Shown here one piece after another: positions 25,072 through 39,609 of a DNA stretch of 42,754 nucleotides (positions are counted from its first letter, which is position 1; the number at the start of each line of letters is the position of its first letter). The stretch is taken from positions 1-42,754 of the IMG/VR virus record IMGVR_UViG_3300021356_000042; one strand, 5' to 3'. A program made the translations under genes and the position numbers. This DNA is from a virus. Below the pieces are notes generated by a model. The model was not told the origin of the DNA. It saw only the letters and a list, made by a program, of their open reading frames with translations, and ran no database searches.

Positions 25072-25078
25072 TTACAAG

Positions 25079-25110
25079 ACCCTTCTTATAAATACATAAG
25101 AAGGGTTTTC
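25079..25110 (+). terminator. Rho-independent terminator with an embedded late promoter
   Basis: An 11-bp perfect stem (25079-25089 with 25096-25106) has a 6-base loop and is followed by TTTT and then C. It starts 7 bases after the stop codon of the 69-aa gene. It is the strongest hairpin I see in the window. Its left arm and loop also contain the TATAAATA octamer. Confidence 0.8.
25087..25094 (+). promoter_or_regulatory. Late promoter inside the terminator hairpin
   Basis: A perfect TATAAATA lies at the top of the left arm and loop of the terminator. Transcripts starting about 6 bases downstream would lack the left arm, so the terminator could not fold in them. The downstream leader ATAAGAAGGGT is repeated before gene 13. 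Confidence 0.65.
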
Positions 25111-31382: not shown

Positions 31383-34300
31383 ATGGCTGATTTCAGATTA
31401 GGTAGACTAAAATTCAACTGGAGAGGAGATTGGCAAGCATCTACCGCTTATGTCATTGACGACATTGTTGCTTTCAAAGGCAACACATACGTTTGTGTCG
31501 TCAACCACACCTCCGCATCTGACGAGACTCAGTGGGACTCCACTGATTACGATATCGCAACACCAAGATGGCAGTTGCATGTCCCTGGCACCAGAATGAT
31601 GGGTGTCTGGACAGCAAACACTTTCTATGCTGTCAATGACCTCGTTAGCTTTGGCGCTAACCAGTATCTATGTGTGTCAAACCACACTTCACCATCAACG
31701 GAAGACCAATTCTATGCTTCCCAAATCAATTGGACACTATATGTAAGTAGTGTTGATTATAAAGGTGCTTGGTCTAACAGTGTCTATTACAAGATTAATG
31801 ACATTGTAAGATATGGTAATAGTCTATATCTTTGCGATACTGCACATACCTCTGGTATTAGTTTCGACGAGTCTAAATTCCAGTTATATCTTGAGTCTCT
31901 CAAGTTTGAAGATACTTGGTCTAACGCTGTTGAATATCAACCTGGCGATATTGTCAACTTTGGTGGTTACACCTATGTGGCAAAGACAATCCACACTAAC
32001 CTCCAACCAAACGCAAATACTTCCGCTTGGGACATTCTAACCACTGGTTTTGATGTTAAGGGTGAGTATGACAACGCAACCGAATATGTCCCTGGTGATG
32101 TAGTCCAGTTTGGTGGTAACACTTTTGTTAAGATTGTTACTGGCAACGCTGGTGTATATCCAACTGACACATCTGCTTGGGAGTTGGTTTCTTCAGGTCT
32201 TAACTGGAGAGGTCCTTGGAATTCTGCTAACACATATCAAATCAATGATGTTGTATCCTCAACGTCTGCTTCTTGGGTATGTCTAACTGACCACAACATC
32301 AACATTGACCCTGTTGCCGACCAAACAAATACTGGTGGCACCAACTGGCAGGCACTTGCACAAGGCGAGTCTACTCTAACGCTATCAAACCCTGGTGACA
32401 TCCTATTCCGTAACAACGGTGGTGCAAACGTTAACCTTGCAATTGGCAACGAAGGCGATATCCTAACCGTTGACGACCAAGGTCTTCCTGCATGGGAAAG
32501 AAACAACTGGTGTGCTAACGTTTACTACGTTTCAACTGATGGCACTGATGACCCAGACTTCGGTAAGAATATCTCCAAGCCTTGGAGATCACTACGCTAT
32601 GCTCTTGCACAAACTGCAAACCAAGGTACTGCTGACAACATCGTAACTATCTTTGTTAAGTCAGGCACCTACGAAGAGCAACTACCTCTTATCACCACAC
32701 CTTACACATCGATTGTTGGTGATAACCTCCGTGCTACGATTATCAAACCAGATCCTAACACGCAGTCAACTGACGCATCACCTGTAGAGAACAGATTCTC
32801 TACGATGTTCTTCCTATCAGAAGCTGTAACCCTCAAAGACCTCGTTATGGTCGGCATGGAAGGTTTCACTCCTGCTGTTGGTGCAAATAACTCTTGGGAT
32901 ATCACCCAAGCAACTATCCGTGGTGTATTCTTACGTCTACATCCTAACGACGCAATCACAACTAAGTCACCTTATATTACTCAGTGCTCTGCATTCTCTG
33001 GTCGCCCATCATCTGGCGATGCAAATAGCGGTGGTGGTGTTGGTTGTATTATTGACAAGAGCATCTACTCTGTCACCTCTAACGGCTCTATGCTGTTTGA
33101 CTCCTTCACACAATTCCATGATGGTGGTGTAGGTTTCTGGTGTAAGGACCTAGGTAACGCTGAAATCGTTTCTTCCTTCACCTACTACGCACACATTGGT
33201 TACACTTGCACAGGTGGTGGTAGAATCCGCTCCGTTGCTGGTAACAACTCCTACGGTGAGTATGGTTGTGTATCTTCAGGCACCGACCCCACAGAAACCG
33301 CACTTACAGGTACTGTTAGAGGTCAGAGACTCAACTTTGTTTACGAAGAAAACTCTGTCCTATTCAAGAAACTTGAGCAGGTCGTCCAGGGTGAAGATGA
33401 CGGCAATGGCAACATTGACTACTCAACATCTAACGCAAACTATGCTCTTGCATTGGTCTTGTATGTCCAAGATGAGTATCTACTAATCGAGCCTATCACG
33501 GGCACATTCGGTAATGGTCTCCCAATTCAAGGTGTTTCTTCAGGCACCGTTGTTGGGTCAGGCGCTACTGGCACAACAGATGCAGCAGCAGCACTTGCTG
33601 GTATCTCTGGTACAATCTTTACCATGGATAACCTACCTGTTTCTGGTGGTCAAGCAGTCCTACCAAAACCAAACTCTTCAACCAACTTCTTGAATGTTGC
33701 TGGGTCTTCCCAGTATGATGACGGCGGATACTACGTTGTTGCAGACGTTGTTGACCCAGATACTGCACAAAACCTCTCACTATCGACTCTACGTCAACGT
33801 GATGTCCCTGGTGCAGAACCAACTGCAGTTGAAATTTCTACAGTTGCATACTCCAACGACACAGTTACCATCGTAACTTCTGCTTCACACGGTCTAACAT
33901 CTGGTGACGAAGTTGTAGTTGTAATTGCAAACGCAGTTTATCAACCATATGCTTCAGCACCATTTGAAAGAGAAACTGTCACTCTTATCGACGGCACAAC
34001 TTTCACATACTCTAAGCCTGGTCTAAACGATATTTCTCCTGCTGTTGCACAAGGTGGGTCTAAAGTTTATCTACAGAGCAGCAGTGGTGGTAGCACAAAG
34101 GCAGTACACACTGGTGGTACTGACGTTGACCTATATAACGTCTCTTCTACTTCAACTAGACTAGACCGAGCAGGCACACAGGCTCTCGACACCACAACTA
34201 CTGACATCACCTTCCAGGATACTTCTATCCTATCTGGTATGACCGCTGGTGCAAACAACTTCATCCTCATCGGCAACGAATTCATGGAAATCAGCGCGAT

Positions 34301-36173
34301 TAACGCTGGTCTCGGTGTAACAGTTACTAGAGGGTCTGAAGGGACTACAGCAGCAGAGCACGCTGACGGTAGCGTTGTATACTATGTAACTAAGACCGCA
34401 GCGGCAACCACACTTAAGGGTGATATCGACACTGCAGTAACTACTCTACCTATCTTCTCTATCTCCAACTTTGATGCTAACGACATCATCAAGATTGAGA
34501 ATGAATTCTTGAGAGTCACTGCTGTAAACTCTGCTCTAGTTGGTCAAGCAACTGTTACCTTCTCACAACCTAAGACGGTTGCGGCAGCAAGTGGTCAAGG
34601 ATTTGAGATGCGTCTAAACTACTCACAGGTTAGACTTACTTCCCACGACTTCTTGAATGTCGGCACAGGCACGAAGACAACCACCAACTGGCCTGACCAG
34701 CCTCTACAAGATCCTAATCAACTCAATGAAGTTTACGAAGACTTCCCAGGTCGTGTTTATTATGTCTCTACTGACCAAGATGGTAACTTCCGTGTTGGTG
34801 AATTCTTCAAGGTTGAGCAGGCAACTGGTAGTGCAACACTCGATGCTAACGCATTCGACCTAAGCGGTCTTGCTTCACTACGACTAGGCACCATCGGTGC
34901 TCAGTTGGGTGCATCGATTAACGAATTCTCTACTGATGTAACACTCGGTGGTGACTTCTCTAGAGACACTGCATGTCCTACTCAGTTGGCAGTTAAGACA
35001 TACGTTGACTCTCAAACTGGTAGCAGCATCGGAAGAACTGCACAGACAATCGGTGTTTCTGCACTTGAGTCTTCTGGCACAACTGCAACTGTAACTTCAT
35101 TCGTCCCAAATAATGTTTTCCAAGGTGATGAAGTTATTATCGCTGGTGCTGACCAATCAAACTACAACGGCACATATATTGTCCAGTCTATTGACACTGC
35201 AAACAACTCATTCACATATGTGATGTCTGGCACTGCAGTTTCACCTGCAACTGGTGCTATTACATGTGAAAGAAAGCAGAAGATTGCTACTGACCTAGAC
35301 ATTGTTGGCAACACTAAGACACGTCCTACATGGAATGATTCTGCTACTGTCTTCAATGCAATTGACATTGATGTTACAGATACCAACTCACAAGTTACTT
35401 CGTCTCTAATTAAAGCAGACGTTGATGGTCAGTCTAAGTTTAACGTTGACAAGGCAGGTAACATCACTGCTGCTGGTAACCTAACCGTTGCAGGCACAAC
35501 AACCACCGTTAACTCAACCAACTTGGAAATCACCGATAAGGAGATTATCATTGGTAGTGGGTCTGCAGATGCTGCTGCAGCAGATGGTGCTGGTATCGTA
35601 GTTGGCACATCTGGTAGGTCACTCAAGTATGACAATAGCAACACCAGATGGAATCTATCTGATGCTCTAAACGTTGGTGGCAACGGTCTACAAATCAGTG
35701 GTGTCCAGGTCCTATCACAGAGCACTCTTGGTAGTGGCGTTACTGCTTCTTCACTAACTTCTGTTGGTGAATTGACTGGACTATCAGTTAGCGGAATCTC
35801 TGGTTTCTCTGGTGTCCAAGAAAGAGTCCAGGTAAGAAACTCTGGCGAATCTGGAAACGTTAGTTACGATTTCGGAGCACAGGGTGTTTACTATCATCCA
35901 TCGCTTGCTGGTGATATCACTATCGGTATCGCGAATGTCCCTGCTGTCTCTGGTCAATCAAGAGCATACACAATCGCGGTAGTTGTTTCTCAGGGTGGCA
36001 CACCATACAAGGTAGCATCTTCCTTCGGTATTAATGGTAGCTCTTATACCATTAAGTGGGCAAATGCTTCACAACCAACAGGTAATGCTAGCAGACACGA
36101 TATTTGGTCCCTATCCATGGTTTATGACGGGTCTACTTGGCAGGTTTATGGTGTTGCATCTTCCTTCGGTTGA
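31383..36173 (+). CDS. Large tail-fibre-like adhesin with six chitin-binding-like repeats and beta-helix, 1596 aa
   Basis: Predicted receptor-binding fibre. Order of parts: six tandem W...Y...D(I/V)V...G..Y.C...H repeats (residues 11-325) of the CBM5/12 chitin-binding type; a beta-helix start (VYYVSTDGTDDPDFGKN, about residue 380, then YTSIVGDNLRATIIKP); a long beta-helical middle; a HGLTSGDEVVVV module (about residue 836); two IGNE/IENE-type repeats (about residues 959-1060); a VYYVSTDQDGNFRVGEFFKV...PTQLAVKTYVDSQ block; the TTTTVNSTNLEITDKEIIIG module (about residues 1373-1392); and a C-terminal domain ending YDGSTWQVYGVASSFG, a fibre end type I associate with cyanophages. Codons are rich in AAC, GAC, TTC and ATC, suggesting high expression. 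AGGAAA precedes the ATG. Confidence 0.8.
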   Translation: MADFRLGRLKFNWRGDWQASTAYVIDDIVAFKGNTYVCVVNHTSASDETQWDSTDYDIATPRWQLHVPGTRMMGVWTANTFYAVNDLVSFGANQYLCVSNHTSPSTEDQFYASQINWTLYVSSVDYKGAWSNSVYYKINDIVRYGNSLYLCDTAHTSGISFDESKFQLYLESLKFEDTWSNAVEYQPGDIVNFGGYTYVAKTIHTNLQPNANTSAWDILTTGFDVKGEYDNATEYVPGDVVQFGGNTFVKIVTGNAGVYPTDTSAWELVSSGLNWRGPWNSANTYQINDVVSSTSASWVCLTDHNINIDPVADQTNTGGTNWQALAQGESTLTLSNPGDILFRNNGGANVNLAIGNEGDILTVDDQGLPAWERNNWCANVYYVSTDGTDDPDFGKNISKPWRSLRYALAQTANQGTADNIVTIFVKSGTYEEQLPLITTPYTSIVGDNLRATIIKPDPNTQSTDASPVENRFSTMFFLSEAVTLKDLVMVGMEGFTPAVGANNSWDITQATIRGVFLRLHPNDAITTKSPYITQCSAFSGRPSSGDANSGGGVGCIIDKSIYSVTSNGSMLFDSFTQFHDGGVGFWCKDLGNAEIVSSFTYYAHIGYTCTGGGRIRSVAGNNSYGEYGCVSSGTDPTETALTGTVRGQRLNFVYEENSVLFKKLEQVVQGEDDGNGNIDYSTSNANYALALVLYVQDEYLLIEPITGTFGNGLPIQGVSSGTVVGSGATGTTDAAAALAGISGTIFTMDNLPVSGGQAVLPKPNSSTNFLNVAGSSQYDDGGYYVVADVVDPDTAQNLSLSTLRQRDVPGAEPTAVEISTVAYSNDTVTIVTSASHGLTSGDEVVVVIANAVYQPYASAPFERETVTLIDGTTFTYSKPGLNDISPAVAQGGSKVYLQSSSGGSTKAVHTGGTDVDLYNVSSTSTRLDRAGTQALDTTTTDITFQDTSILSGMTAGANNFILIGNEFMEISAINAGLGVTVTRGSEGTTAAEHADGSVVYYVTKTAAATTLKGDIDTAVTTLPIFSISNFDANDIIKIENEFLRVTAVNSALVGQATVTFSQPKTVAAASGQGFEMRLNYSQVRLTSHDFLNVGTGTKTTTNWPDQPLQDPNQLNEVYEDFPGRVYYVSTDQDGNFRVGEFFKVEQATGSATLDANAFDLSGLASLRLGTIGAQLGASINEFSTDVTLGGDFSRDTACPTQLAVKTYVDSQTGSSIGRTAQTIGVSALESSGTTATVTSFVPNNVFQGDEVIIAGADQSNYNGTYIVQSIDTANNSFTYVMSGTAVSPATGAITCERKQKIATDLDIVGNTKTRPTWNDSATVFNAIDIDVTDTNSQVTSSLIKADVDGQSKFNVDKAGNITAAGNLTVAGTTTTVNSTNLEITDKEIIIGSGSADAAAADGAGIVVGTSGRSLKYDNSNTRWNLSDALNVGGNGLQISGVQVLSQSTLGSGVTASSLTSVGELTGLSVSGISGFSGVQERVQVRNSGESGNVSYDFGAQGVYYHPSLAGDITIGIANVPAVSGQSRAYTIAVVVSQGGTPYKVASSFGINGSSYTIKWANASQPTGNASRHDIWSLSMVYDGSTWQVYGVASSFG
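31413..32357 (+). repeat. Six tandem CBM5/12-like protein repeats
   Basis: Six copies of about 45-52 codons encode residues 11-62, 72-120, 126-170, 175-219, 224-270 and 274-325. Each has a Trp/Tyr near the start, a Y-x-x-x-D-[ILV]-V core, G-[NS]-x-[WFY] and mostly a C-x-x-x-H-T ending. The fifth copy has lost the C/H ending and the first Trp, so it may be non-binding. Confidence 0.7.
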
Positions 36174-36207: not shown

Positions 36208-37140
36208 ATGCCATTTTTAGGAAGTTTCACAGGGAGTAAAGCATTCGGCGGCGGAGGGGGCGGCGGCTCCCTCGACGTTTGGGTTTCACAGGAGGGTTTT
36301 AGCTTAATTAGTGGTACCGCAGGTTCAGCAAATGCAGTATATGAAAAAGTATATAATGGTAGCACTAGTGGTTCTTGGAATACCACTCAATCTGATTTGA
36401 CTTACAGTTTATCTGCACCACCAATTCCCGTTAAAGCTCAGGTGCTTTTATGTGCTGGCGGTGCTGGTGCAGCTGGAGGATTGTCTGGCGGTGGTGGTGC
36501 TGGTGGATCTCTATTTCACAACTCATATACATTAAGCACTGTTTCAGCTACTAGCATCACTATTGGTGGTGGTGGCTCAGGCGCAAGTAGTCATGGTGGA
36601 TATGGTGTAGCAGGAAGAGCTTCGTCATTCGGATCACTTAGCTGTGACGGCGGCGGGCGTCCTGGCAGATGGTCAGGTGAGCCTGGACAACCAGGCGGGT
36701 GCGCTGGTGGTGCCAACGCTCACTGGGGTGGATATTATGGTGGTGGTTCTTCAACTGCTCCACCAAATCCTGGTGCAACTCACTATGGTTATCGTGGCGG
36801 TCAAAAAAATGAGTGTCCATCATATGTTGGCGCGGGTGGCGGTGGTGCTGGCGGTAATGGATATTCCCAAGGCGGTCCTGGTCGTGTACTCCTAGGAAGA
36901 GGATATGGCGGCGGCGGTGGTGGCGGTAGTCACTACGGTTGGGGTTATTATCCACCTTCATCAGGCGGATCCTATGGTGGTGGACGTGGCACACAATGGC
37001 ACCATAATGCAGGTGTTAGCGGTAGTGACAGAACTGGCAGCGGCGGTGGCAGTGGACACCATTCACCAGAAAACAATGGTGGTAGAGGCGGCAGTGGATT
37101 CTGTGTTGTCCGTGTAAGAGGAGACGGTCAGCAAATCTAA
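36208..37140 (+). CDS. Glycine-rich adhesin-like tail protein, 310 aa
   Basis: Predicted receptor-binding tip or fibre-tip protein. Seen: an FGGGGGGGSLDVWVS linker (residues 13-27), a short beta domain (to about 70), then a glycine-rich region from VKAQVLLCAGGAGAAGG (residue 75) to the end, with many G-G-x runs separated by aromatic and histidine loops (SHYGWGYYPP, ANAHWGGYYGGGS) and closing SGFCVVRVRGD. This fits the phage glycine-rich tail domain. The idea of polyglycine-II packing, as in T-even gp38 adhesins, is family knowledge applied by analogy. Cysteines at 82, 147, 165, 203 and 299 could pair or bind metal. It is the last structural gene before the halogenase. A small dedicated chaperone is not seen. 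Confidence 0.7.
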   Translation: MPFLGSFTGSKAFGGGGGGGSLDVWVSQEGFSLISGTAGSANAVYEKVYNGSTSGSWNTTQSDLTYSLSAPPIPVKAQVLLCAGGAGAAGGLSGGGGAGGSLFHNSYTLSTVSATSITIGGGGSGASSHGGYGVAGRASSFGSLSCDGGGRPGRWSGEPGQPGGCAGGANAHWGGYYGGGSSTAPPNPGATHYGYRGGQKNECPSYVGAGGGGAGGNGYSQGGPGRVLLGRGYGGGGGGGSHYGWGYYPPSSGGSYGGGRGTQWHHNAGVSGSDRTGSGGGSGHHSPENNGGRGGSGFCVVRVRGDGQQI

Positions 37141-37146
37141 TAAATA
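37139..37146 (+). promoter_or_regulatory. Late promoter overlapping a stop codon
   Basis: AATAAATA followed by C begins inside the TAA stop of the glycine-rich gene, 22 bases before the halogenase ATG. It gives the halogenase its own candidate late start. Confidence 0.6.
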
Positions 37147-37168
37147 CTTGAAACAATAAATTTACATT

Positions 37169-38773
37169 ATGTCTTATTCCTTTGAGAATATTACTATCGT
37201 TGGCGGTGGTTCATCTGGTTGGATGACTGCCGCCACTTTTGCTAGGTTTTTTTCTGATAAAAATATCTCAATTATTGAAAGTCCAGACTATCCAATTGTG
37301 GGTGTTGGAGAAAGCACCTTAGGACAAATTAATAAATGGAAAAGTCTTCTTGGTATAGAGGATAAAGACTTTATGCAAGAAACTGATGCTTCATATAAAA
37401 TGAGCATCAAATTTACAGATTTTTACAAAAAGGATGCAGGTGGATTTCATTATCCATTTGGAGAGAGAAGATTAATTGGTGATAATTTTGATGGATTTAA
37501 TACATGGTTTGTTAAAAAAGCATTGAGACCCGAAACCCCTGTGCAAGAATATTGCAGGGCACATTATACATCAATGCCTCTCATTGAGAATAATAGAATT
37601 TCAGATGACCCAGAAAAATATCCATTTAGTATGCAGTGGGATACTGCATATCATTTTGATGCAACAAAATTTGGACAGGTATTAAAGAAAAATTATTGTT
37701 TACCTAGAGGTGTAAATCTCATCCAAGATAGTGTTGAAGATGTAGTTGTAAATGACGATGGTATTGACCATCTAATATTAAAAAGTGGCAACAAACATAA
37801 AGCAGACTTATATATTGACTGCACAGGATTTAAGAGTTTATTGTTATCTCAAACATTGAATGAAGAATTTATTTCTTTCAATGATATTCTGCCAAATAAT
37901 AAAGCTTGGGCAACACATTTACCATATATCGATAGAGAAAAAGAGATAGAATGTTTTACTAATAGCACTGCTATCGGGAATGGTTGGTGCTGGAATATTC
38001 CTTTATGGTCTAGAATTGGCACAGGATATGTTTATTCTGACAAGTATATAACCGATGAAGAAGCATTAGAAGAATTCAAACAATATCTAATGTCAGATAA
38101 GGTTGTCATCCCTAGGACTAGAGAGCAAGTAGATGCGATGACGTTTAGACCTATCACTATGAGAGTTGGTATTCATGATAGGACGTGGGTAAAAAATGTT
38201 GTTGGCATCGGATTAGCAGCAGGATTTGTAGAGCCTCTGGAGAGTAATGGTTTGTTTACAGTCCACGAATTTTTACTTCAGTTGATGAGGACATTGCAGC
38301 GCAGTGATGTTTATACTCAATTTGATGTGGATTCATATAATTCTGCAACGAAAGAATTGTTTTATGAGTTTGCCGAGTTTGTTGCTATGCATTATTCTTT
38401 ATCAAATAGAAATGATACTGAATACTGGAGAGATGTTACTCGCCAAAGAAATAGAATGACGGATGAATTAGTTTCTAGAGTAGTAAGACCATCTAATGCT
38501 TCTTTAAAATTATCCTATGCAAAGGGTCGTGAAAATAGATGCCCTAATGATGTATATGCAGGAGATATTCCGATTGCTGCTGGTATGAATTATAATTTTA
38601 CATCAAAATTAGATGTAGAATTAAAACAGTTATTTGATGATGTAGATTATGAATCTTTGGTTGATGAGAGTAGTGCTTCATGGGATTATTGGTATTCTAA
38701 AAATTTAGATAAAGCTATGCGGTGTCCTACTCTCCACAATTATCTGAAGACTAATATTCATACAGATAAATAG
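37169..38773 (+). CDS. Flavin-dependent halogenase (tryptophan halogenase family)
   Basis: Predicted FADH2-dependent halogenase, which adds Cl, Br or I to an electron-rich carbon using O2 and a halide. Seen: an N-terminal FAD-binding motif IVGGGSSGWM (residues 10-19), VGVGESTLGQINKWKSLLG (44-62), the catalytic-type Lys in SYKMSIKF (K77), the family signature WCWNIP (W273-P278) and Glu358 in FVEPLESNG, matching the Lys and Glu known to be needed in PrnA. Length (534 aa) is normal and the gene is intact. Related viral enzymes exist: VirX1 of cyanophage Syn10 is a characterised iodinating halogenase. The gene is AT-richer than its neighbours, with more AAA, TTA and ATT codons. It lacks a clear Shine-Dalgarno and lies between an adhesin gene and gene 13. 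No flavin reductase is in the window, so a host one would be needed. Substrate unknown. Confidence 0.92.
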   Translation: MSYSFENITIVGGGSSGWMTAATFARFFSDKNISIIESPDYPIVGVGESTLGQINKWKSLLGIEDKDFMQETDASYKMSIKFTDFYKKDAGGFHYPFGERRLIGDNFDGFNTWFVKKALRPETPVQEYCRAHYTSMPLIENNRISDDPEKYPFSMQWDTAYHFDATKFGQVLKKNYCLPRGVNLIQDSVEDVVVNDDGIDHLILKSGNKHKADLYIDCTGFKSLLLSQTLNEEFISFNDILPNNKAWATHLPYIDREKEIECFTNSTAIGNGWCWNIPLWSRIGTGYVYSDKYITDEEALEEFKQYLMSDKVVIPRTREQVDAMTFRPITMRVGIHDRTWVKNVVGIGLAAGFVEPLESNGLFTVHEFLLQLMRTLQRSDVYTQFDVDSYNSATKELFYEFAEFVAMHYSLSNRNDTEYWRDVTRQRNRMTDELVSRVVRPSNASLKLSYAKGRENRCPNDVYAGDIPIAAGMNYNFTSKLDVELKQLFDDVDYESLVDESSASWDYWYSKNLDKAMRCPTLHNYLKTNIHTDK

Positions 38774-38796: not shown

Positions 38797-39609
38797 ATGT
38801 CTAAATCTAAACCTGCTACAAGGCAAGAATTAATTGATTACTGCCTTCGTAGACTGGGTGCTCCAGTGCTAGAAATTAACGTAGACGAAGACCAAGTAGA
38901 AGACTTGGTGGATGAGGCACTACAGTATTTCAACGAAAGGCATTTTGATGGTGTTGAGAAAATGTTTCTCAAGCACAAAGTTACTGCTGCTGATGTAACT
39001 CGTTTCCAAGAGAGTAACACCACTACCACTGCTCCTAATGGAGATGTGTGGGAGGAGAGGAATAACTATATCGAAATGCCAGAGCATATCATTGGTGTTG
39101 AAAGATTGTTTTCTTTCGTTGCTAGTAGTATTCGTGGCGACTTGTTTGGTATTGAATATCAAATGTTTTTGAATGACTTGTATGCATTCGGGTCATTAGA
39201 TATTCTAAACTATTACATGACCAAATCATATCTAGAAACTCTGGATATGGTATTGAATACTGGTGCGTTTATTCAACTCAGATACACCAAGAGACAGAAT
39301 AGACTCTACATTGATTATGAAGCAAAGAATATGAATGATGACCGATACATCATCGTTGAGTGTTATCGTGCATTGAATCCAGCAGACCACACAGCAATTT
39401 ATAATGACTTCTTCTTGAAGAGATATCTAACTGCTCTCATCAAGAGACAGTGGGGTCAGAATCTAATCAAGTTTAATGGCATCCAACTTCCTGGTGCTGT
39501 GTCACTCAATGGAGAGAAGTTATTCTCTGACGGTCAAAGGGAGTTAGATGAAATCGAAGCAAAGATGATTTCAGATTACGAATTACCACCACTAGACGCA
39601 ATCGGTTGA
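38797..39609 (+). CDS. 13: Neck protein gp13
   Basis: Head-completion/neck protein that, in T4, forms a ring with gp14 under the portal and seals the packaged head for tail joining. Seen: the N-terminal block RQELIDYCLRRLGAPVLEIN followed by DQVEDLVDEALQYFNERHFD and EKMFLKHKVT is characteristic of T4-like gp13. The middle has FSFVASSIRGDLFGIEYQMF and the C-terminal half RYLTALIKRQWGQNLIKF. At 270 aa it is near the T4 length (309). It begins the 13-14-15-16 run in T4 order. A single base separates it from gene 14. Confidence 0.9.
   Translation: MSKSKPATRQELIDYCLRRLGAPVLEINVDEDQVEDLVDEALQYFNERHFDGVEKMFLKHKVTAADVTRFQESNTTTTAPNGDVWEERNNYIEMPEHIIGVERLFSFVASSIRGDLFGIEYQMFLNDLYAFGSLDILNYYMTKSYLETLDMVLNTGAFIQLRYTKRQNRLYIDYEAKNMNDDRYIIVECYRALNPADHTAIYNDFFLKRYLTALIKRQWGQNLIKFNGIQLPGAVSLNGEKLFSDGQRELDEIEAKMISDYELPPLDAIG

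Follow-up and report, generated by a model that had tools for sequence, protein, structure and literature searches.

Halogenases of the VirX1 family are paired near-obligately with genes encoding glycine-rich tail-fiber tips. Because the pairing is near-obligate we propose a halogenated tip; our preferred reading, which we hold to have an even chance of being right, is that the halogenase is one part of a receptor-binding-tip cassette that phages exchange, and that its probable targets are exposed tyrosine, tryptophan or histidine residues of the tip. The family of the enzyme, its intactness and its linkage to the tip are matters of direct observation, while its substrate and the benefit to the phage are what we infer from them. 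The window considered here, that is, the whole stretch of DNA that was analysed, is a linear virus record of 42,754 bases and a piece of the late region of a T4-like cyanomyovirus; its source is a phage of cyanobacteria. The right-hand end of the window runs in the order tail fiber, glycine-rich tip, halogenase, gp13, gp14 and gp15, and the cassette consists here of the fiber, the tip and the halogenase only. The features concerned are the following:

31383..36173, + strand: tail fiber protein, upstream carrier of the tip module (phrog_9851, tail fiber protein; CBM_5_12 stretches)
36208..37140, + strand: glycine-rich tail-fiber tip, putative receptor-binding adhesin, 310 aa, 31% Gly (PF21722 E=2e-12, composition, Foldseek)
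37140..37146, + strand: ATAAATA late-promoter-like motif, 29 bp 5' of the halogenase start, kept in the relatives L002 and L003
37169..38773, + strand: VirX1-family flavin-dependent halogenase, 534 aa, intact (PF04820, VirX1 match, K77/E358)
38766..38772, + strand: ATAAATA late-promoter-like motif, 31 bp 5' of gp13, overlapping the halogenase 3' end (motif search)
38797..39609, + strand: gp13, head-tail adaptor / neck protein, at the right edge of the exchanged module (phrog_211 E=1e-46)

The CBM_5_12 stretches of the tail fiber (31383-36173) are carbohydrate-binding and three in number.

A first-pass annotation of this DNA had described an intact halogenase between the tip gene and gene 13, and this description stands: the reading frames are found as listed, the halogenase opens with ATG, and all of the motifs that had been named are present, namely GGGSSG at residue 12, K77, WCWNIP at 273 and E358 within EPLES. 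Neither K77 nor E358 varies in alignments of 56 and of 103 sequences. The protein matches PF04820 (E=7e-105) as well as phrog_2928, and its best match among solved structures is VirX1 (6qgm, E=7.5e-101), to which the profile alignment is full-length (positions 2-527), the C-terminal region included. An AlphaFold model built on an alignment restricted to sequences from the window and the contigs has a pLDDT of 91.8, and Foldseek places it at a TM of 0.91 to VirX1 6qgm, against ~0.8 to free-tryptophan halogenases. The dN/dS of the gene is ~0.13 (0.12-0.14) relative to L002 and L003, which indicates purifying selection. In the tree, the enzyme groups with VirX1 and not with other phage halogenases; the branch to the 63-row clade has an SH-aLRT of 90, and of 97 when the sequence L223 is included, in a tree made by a quick method and without bootstrap. 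The clade is separate from the halogenases found in metabolic-gene regions of S-MbCM6, Syn1 and P-SSM2, from that of the S-SSM6a sugar/carbamoyltransferase cluster and from that of HTVC008M, which lies between terminase genes. Sequence, fold and tree assign the window enzyme, with its predicted halogenating activity, to the VirX1 family; we do not place it with the free-tryptophan halogenases or in the S-SSM6a-type cluster.

The linkage of enzyme to tip was approached from both ends. Starting from the enzyme, halogenase relatives were collected, open reading frames called and the distance to glycine-rich frames measured. The VirX1 clade comprised 63 dereplicated enzymes, 48 of them assessable, and a glycine-rich tip gene lay no more than 7 kb away in 44 of these 48, a count inflated by shared ancestry, many contigs being related. 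Half of the 44 linked enzymes lie within ~0.7 kb of the tip gene and 12 are on the opposite strand; as a baseline, only 2-18% of the sequence of nine large genomes is 3 kb or less from a glycine-rich gene. The arrangement is alike in S-RIM44, Sf-FP1, Sf-FR1, S-WAM1, S-CREM1, P-RSM6, S-SZBM1 and P-TIM40, and in Syn10 both VirX1 and its paralogue directly follow three glycine-rich genes. Context, in which the first-pass annotation had seen part of the novelty of this window, is not peculiar to it; since VirX1 of Syn10 itself sits in a like cassette, tip linkage is a family trait. In Syn10 gp13 lies ~63 kb from the cassette and the halogenases still adjoin the tips, which weakens the explanation that the site before gp13 alone is a hotspot for cargo.

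The reverse search used the tip as query instead of the enzyme and in this way avoided sampling on the halogenase. Among 50,697 phage records, the Syn10 tip matched 12 and the S-RIM44 tip matched eight, and a VirX1-clade halogenase was present in all 20 of the 20. The viral contigs yielded 80 loci that encode the N-terminal domain of the Syn10-type tip; after removal of redundancy, 46 of them had 3.5 kb or more of downstream sequence, and a halogenase lies on the same strand, 443-2148 bp downstream, in every one of these dereplicated contigs (46/46). Three relative contigs were found for the tip type of the window itself, and 3/3 have a halogenase. K77 and E358 are intact in 103/103 sequences. 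A phrog_1787-type protein of ~165 aa lies between tip and halogenase in 76 of the 76 Syn10-type loci from which such a gene was extracted; the halogenase is thus not the only recurrent neighbor of the tip, since this gene and the oxygenases return in the cassette as well. The phrog_1787 protein (for example L061:7968-8462), which is absent from the window, is a candidate tip chaperone or enzyme adaptor. Tip relatives were recovered through the non-repetitive N-terminal domain; repeat-based searches gave no confirmed relatives for tip A5, and that with the L066 tip found itself and one fragment. The N-terminal domain of the Sf-CH11 tip also matches phages outside the listed halogenase records.

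Samples drawn on gp13 give a more mixed picture. Counted in the order halogenase with tip, halogenase without tip, tip without halogenase and neither, two such samples gave 4/0/3/30 (Fisher 5e-4) and 3/0/4/19 (p=0.013), and the L019-type gp13 sample showed no association (1/8/4/22), its tips being able to lie beyond the 10 kb fetched. The co-occurrence of the two genes, which had been put forward at first pass as a check, is accordingly strong in both directions of search and null in one gp13-based sample. An odd start codon in L142 was traced to an artefact of the ORF caller, with the homologous ATG just inside.

Tip and enzyme also segregate together. Two isolates of S-RIM44 with 96.6% identity around gp13 differ in having or lacking the entire tip and halogenase cassette, so that within this one species tips and halogenases have been gained or lost jointly. 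Compared with L002 and L003, the relative L062 is 97-100% identical in gp13-15, yet its tip differs (36-37% identity) and it has no halogenase; L142 and L068 show the same pattern, with gp13-15 at 90-93%. Conversely, the backbones of the window and L142 are distant (gp14 53%) and their tips are nevertheless 61%, their halogenases 60% identical. L062, L064 and L068 all possess glycine-rich tips of another type and lack the halogenase, and tips of other types therefore do not need the enzyme. Among genomes in which the two genes are apart, S-B64 has its halogenase in the replication region and encodes a His-rich, glycine-rich tip elsewhere, and the L054 contig has a glycine-rich tip-like gene ~100 kb from its halogenase. 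In L045 and L046 a tail fiber lies near the halogenase and no glycine-rich gene was detected.

Related islands vary in content. Those adjacent to fiber and tip in L004, L033, L039, L009 and L015 hold three to four different PF04820 halogenases and several PF13759 oxygenases, that of L004 additionally a carbamoyltransferase. In S-CREM1 (L218 10619-16109), one halogenase and tip are followed by a JmjC protein and by eight genes annotated as 2OG-Fe(II) oxygenases. S-CAM3 (L230 1958-10254) has glycine-containing tip-like genes followed by carbamoyltransferase and heptose-sugar genes and no halogenase, possibly a parallel decoration cassette.

The halogenase had been credited at first pass with its own late promoter, and an ATAAATA motif does precede its start. 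This motif occurs 13 times in the window, each time on the + (coding) strand, and 10 of the copies are intergenic, with intergenic DNA making up ~2% of the window; a motif search of the window found no copy before the start of the glycine-rich gene. From such promoter motifs late expression of the halogenase would be expected. In L142 and in L062, a close relative without halogenase, a hairpin precedes gp13 with the promoter motif across its loop, and in the window's copy of this hairpin the left arm is gone. DNA similarity between the window and L062 begins at 38766, so the module was probably exchanged at this position. Near-identical hairpins (AAGACCCTTCTTAT/ATAAGAAGGGT) with ATAAATA across the loop recur at window 25076-25109, L062:6564-6595 and L142:2920-2975; we read ATAAATA-holding hairpins as terminator and promoter in one, an element that recurs where modules meet.

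The label of adhesin given to the tip gene at first pass is backed by PF21722 and by Foldseek matches of the tip model, moderate in confidence at a pLDDT of 66, to the Bxb1 tail tip and the Pam3 cyanophage fiber. A glycine-rich distal domain is encoded directly after the tail fiber, as in tips of the Pam3 gp24 / S16 gp38 type. The gene encodes a putative receptor-binding adhesin, whose binding to a receptor and presence in the virion are predicted. In Pam3 the glycine-rich domain is described as belonging to the receptor-recognizing end, with loop tips that are variable (PMC9608196). A general enrichment of Trp/Tyr in tips beside a halogenase failed in a larger sample: tips of the gp13-sampled set had 11.6 vs 5.0 W+Y+H per 100, and in the larger set histidine alone differed among the aromatics (3.0 vs 0.67, p=0.007), a weak difference with seven controls. 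Aromatic enrichment is not relied on here as evidence because only the histidine difference was kept in the larger set. Several columns of the tip alignment interchange mostly among H, Y and W, and these are candidate modification sites.

Taken together, bidirectional pairing that persists while gene order and position change suggests function and not merely a hotspot for cargo. The simplest coupling would be that the tip is the substrate of the enzyme. The cassette would then comprise a tail fiber, a glycine-rich tip, sometimes the phrog_1787 protein, the halogenase and often 2OG-Fe(II) oxygenases. Made late in infection, the enzyme would most likely act while the tail fiber is assembled and, alongside the 2OG-Fe(II) oxygenases, add bromine, iodine or chlorine to exposed, electron-rich tyrosine, tryptophan or histidine of the tip's variable loops; a tip halogenated in this way would differ in receptor binding, in stability or in the interference between phages. 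It is tempting to extend this to the family, with VirX1-type enzymes acting as dedicated protein halogenases and many cyanophages carrying halogenated Tyr, Trp or His in their tip loops with 2OG-Fe(II) oxygenases as partners, a generalization that we judge to fall a little short of an even chance.

Several observations speak against the tip as substrate: tryptophan and tyrosine are not enriched in tips beside a halogenase in the larger sample, and histidine is so weakly; the phrog_1787 gene and the oxygenases recur as the halogenase does; shared ancestry raises the counts; the Sf-CH11 domain has matches beyond the listed halogenase records; one gp13-based sample is null; some close relatives have another tip type and no enzyme; and VirX1, as reviewed, works on free small aromatic molecules in vitro (PMC8407142). 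The last of these also favors the main rival, in which the halogenase and its oxygenase neighbors make or modify a small molecule late in infection, be it free tryptophan or indole, a pigment derivative, a signal or a toxin, with the tip cassette serving merely as the site at which this cargo is carried and exchanged. Other cyanophage halogenases do reside in clusters with carbamoyltransferase and sugar genes that have been interpreted as serving a secondary metabolite or the decoration of capsules (PMC7824862), L004-like contigs add a carbamoyltransferase to their island, and other tip types carry other cargo or none. Nevertheless, the reverse pairing is near-obligate (46/46 contigs, 20/20 records), it persists far from gp13, the exceptions encode a glycine-rich tip elsewhere, and a small-molecule role gives no reason why tip type and enzyme should be swapped jointly; we regard this rival as rather unlikely. 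The alternatives offered at first pass, halogenation of a host metabolite or a signal at lysis, likewise explain the near-obligate pairing less well.

Tip-type specificity and late expression would both be accounted for if the target were on the host side, be it a surface glycan, an outer-membrane protein or a receptor pigment, and its modification served superinfection exclusion or kept released virions from binding to debris; enzyme and tip would in that case be linked because both must match the same receptor. This seems improbable, given that the 534-aa protein begins directly at the flavin-binding fold, that flavin-dependent catalysis is cytoplasmic and that late timing is rather late for exclusion. 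Least probable of all, in our estimation, is a linkage by ancestry alone, in which a few tip modules acquired a halogenase once and have kept it because the cassette recombines at its borders and is exchanged as a unit. A module border is indeed visible (38766), many contigs are related, and the gene between tip and enzyme is as strictly conserved as the enzyme (76/76); yet the pairing spans several unrelated tip types, gene orders and both strands, the catalytic residues are all retained under purifying selection, and S-B64 and the L054 contig encode the pair in trans.

A search of the literature, with subscription papers outside its reach, found no report of a tip-halogenase linkage; to judge from what could be searched, the near-obligate tip pairing, which extends to VirX1 itself, is new. 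Among the roles proposed for VirX1 and its kin are antibiotic protection of the host (PMC2984593) and changed host metabolites (PMC10452541), and for the other type of cluster a secondary metabolite or capsule decoration (PMC7824862). The tip pairing offers a specific candidate for what these enzymes act on in nature. Halogenated tips, if confirmed, would represent a type of post-translational modification new to viruses that affects how the host is recognized, a chemical route to diversify this recognition past the limit of the 20 amino acids, and would lead to enzymes able to halogenate proteins in the folded state. Should tips prove to be unhalogenated, the pairing itself would still need an explanation.

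Comparison with known systems places these findings. The window tip resembles Pam3 gp24 (7ypx) and S16 gp38 (PMC9608196) in its glycine-rich distal domain and variable loop tips, within the limits of a moderate model; for these two, no halogenase neighbor is mentioned in the text consulted. Cyanophage halogenases of the S-SSM6a / P-SSM2 type (PMC7824862) are also phage-borne PF04820 proteins accompanied by 2OG oxygenases, as in VirX1 cassettes, but they share <31% identity with the window enzyme, fall outside the VirX1 clade and occupy metabolic-gene or sugar/carbamoyltransferase regions, whereas the neighbors of the window enzyme are the tail fiber, the tip and gp13-15. PrnA, RebH, PyrH and Thal have the PF04820 fold and the catalytic core in common with it; the free-tryptophan halogenases are nonetheless more distant (TM ~0.8), and many of their alignments end before the C-terminal region, several stopping near residue 440 while PrnA and RebH variants align further. 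The window enzyme also has YPF where Th-Hal, AbeH, SttH and PyrH have HPF.

Flavin halogenases that act on peptides or proteins are known in SrpI (PMC10858898), ChlH (PMC12518702) and PyrH, the last on (G/S)GW motifs (PMC9775415). SrpI, ChlH and engineered PyrH provide a precedent for tryptophan halogenation in ribosomal peptides and proteins, but they belong to RiPP clusters or engineered tags and not to phage tail proteins, and we claim no membership among them. The closest system remains VirX1 of cyanophage Syn10 (6qgm), with which the window enzyme shares the catalytic lysine (K79, equivalent to K77), the catalytic glutamate, the WxWxIP motif and the setting beside a glycine-rich tip. At ~38% identity, and with EPLESN for EPLEST, its activity and halide preference can only be predicted from this likeness; in contrast to the VirX1 locus, the window halogenase is a single copy placed directly after the tip, with no phrog_1787 gene. 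The active site of VirX1 is unusually open and suits bulky substrates (PMC8407142).
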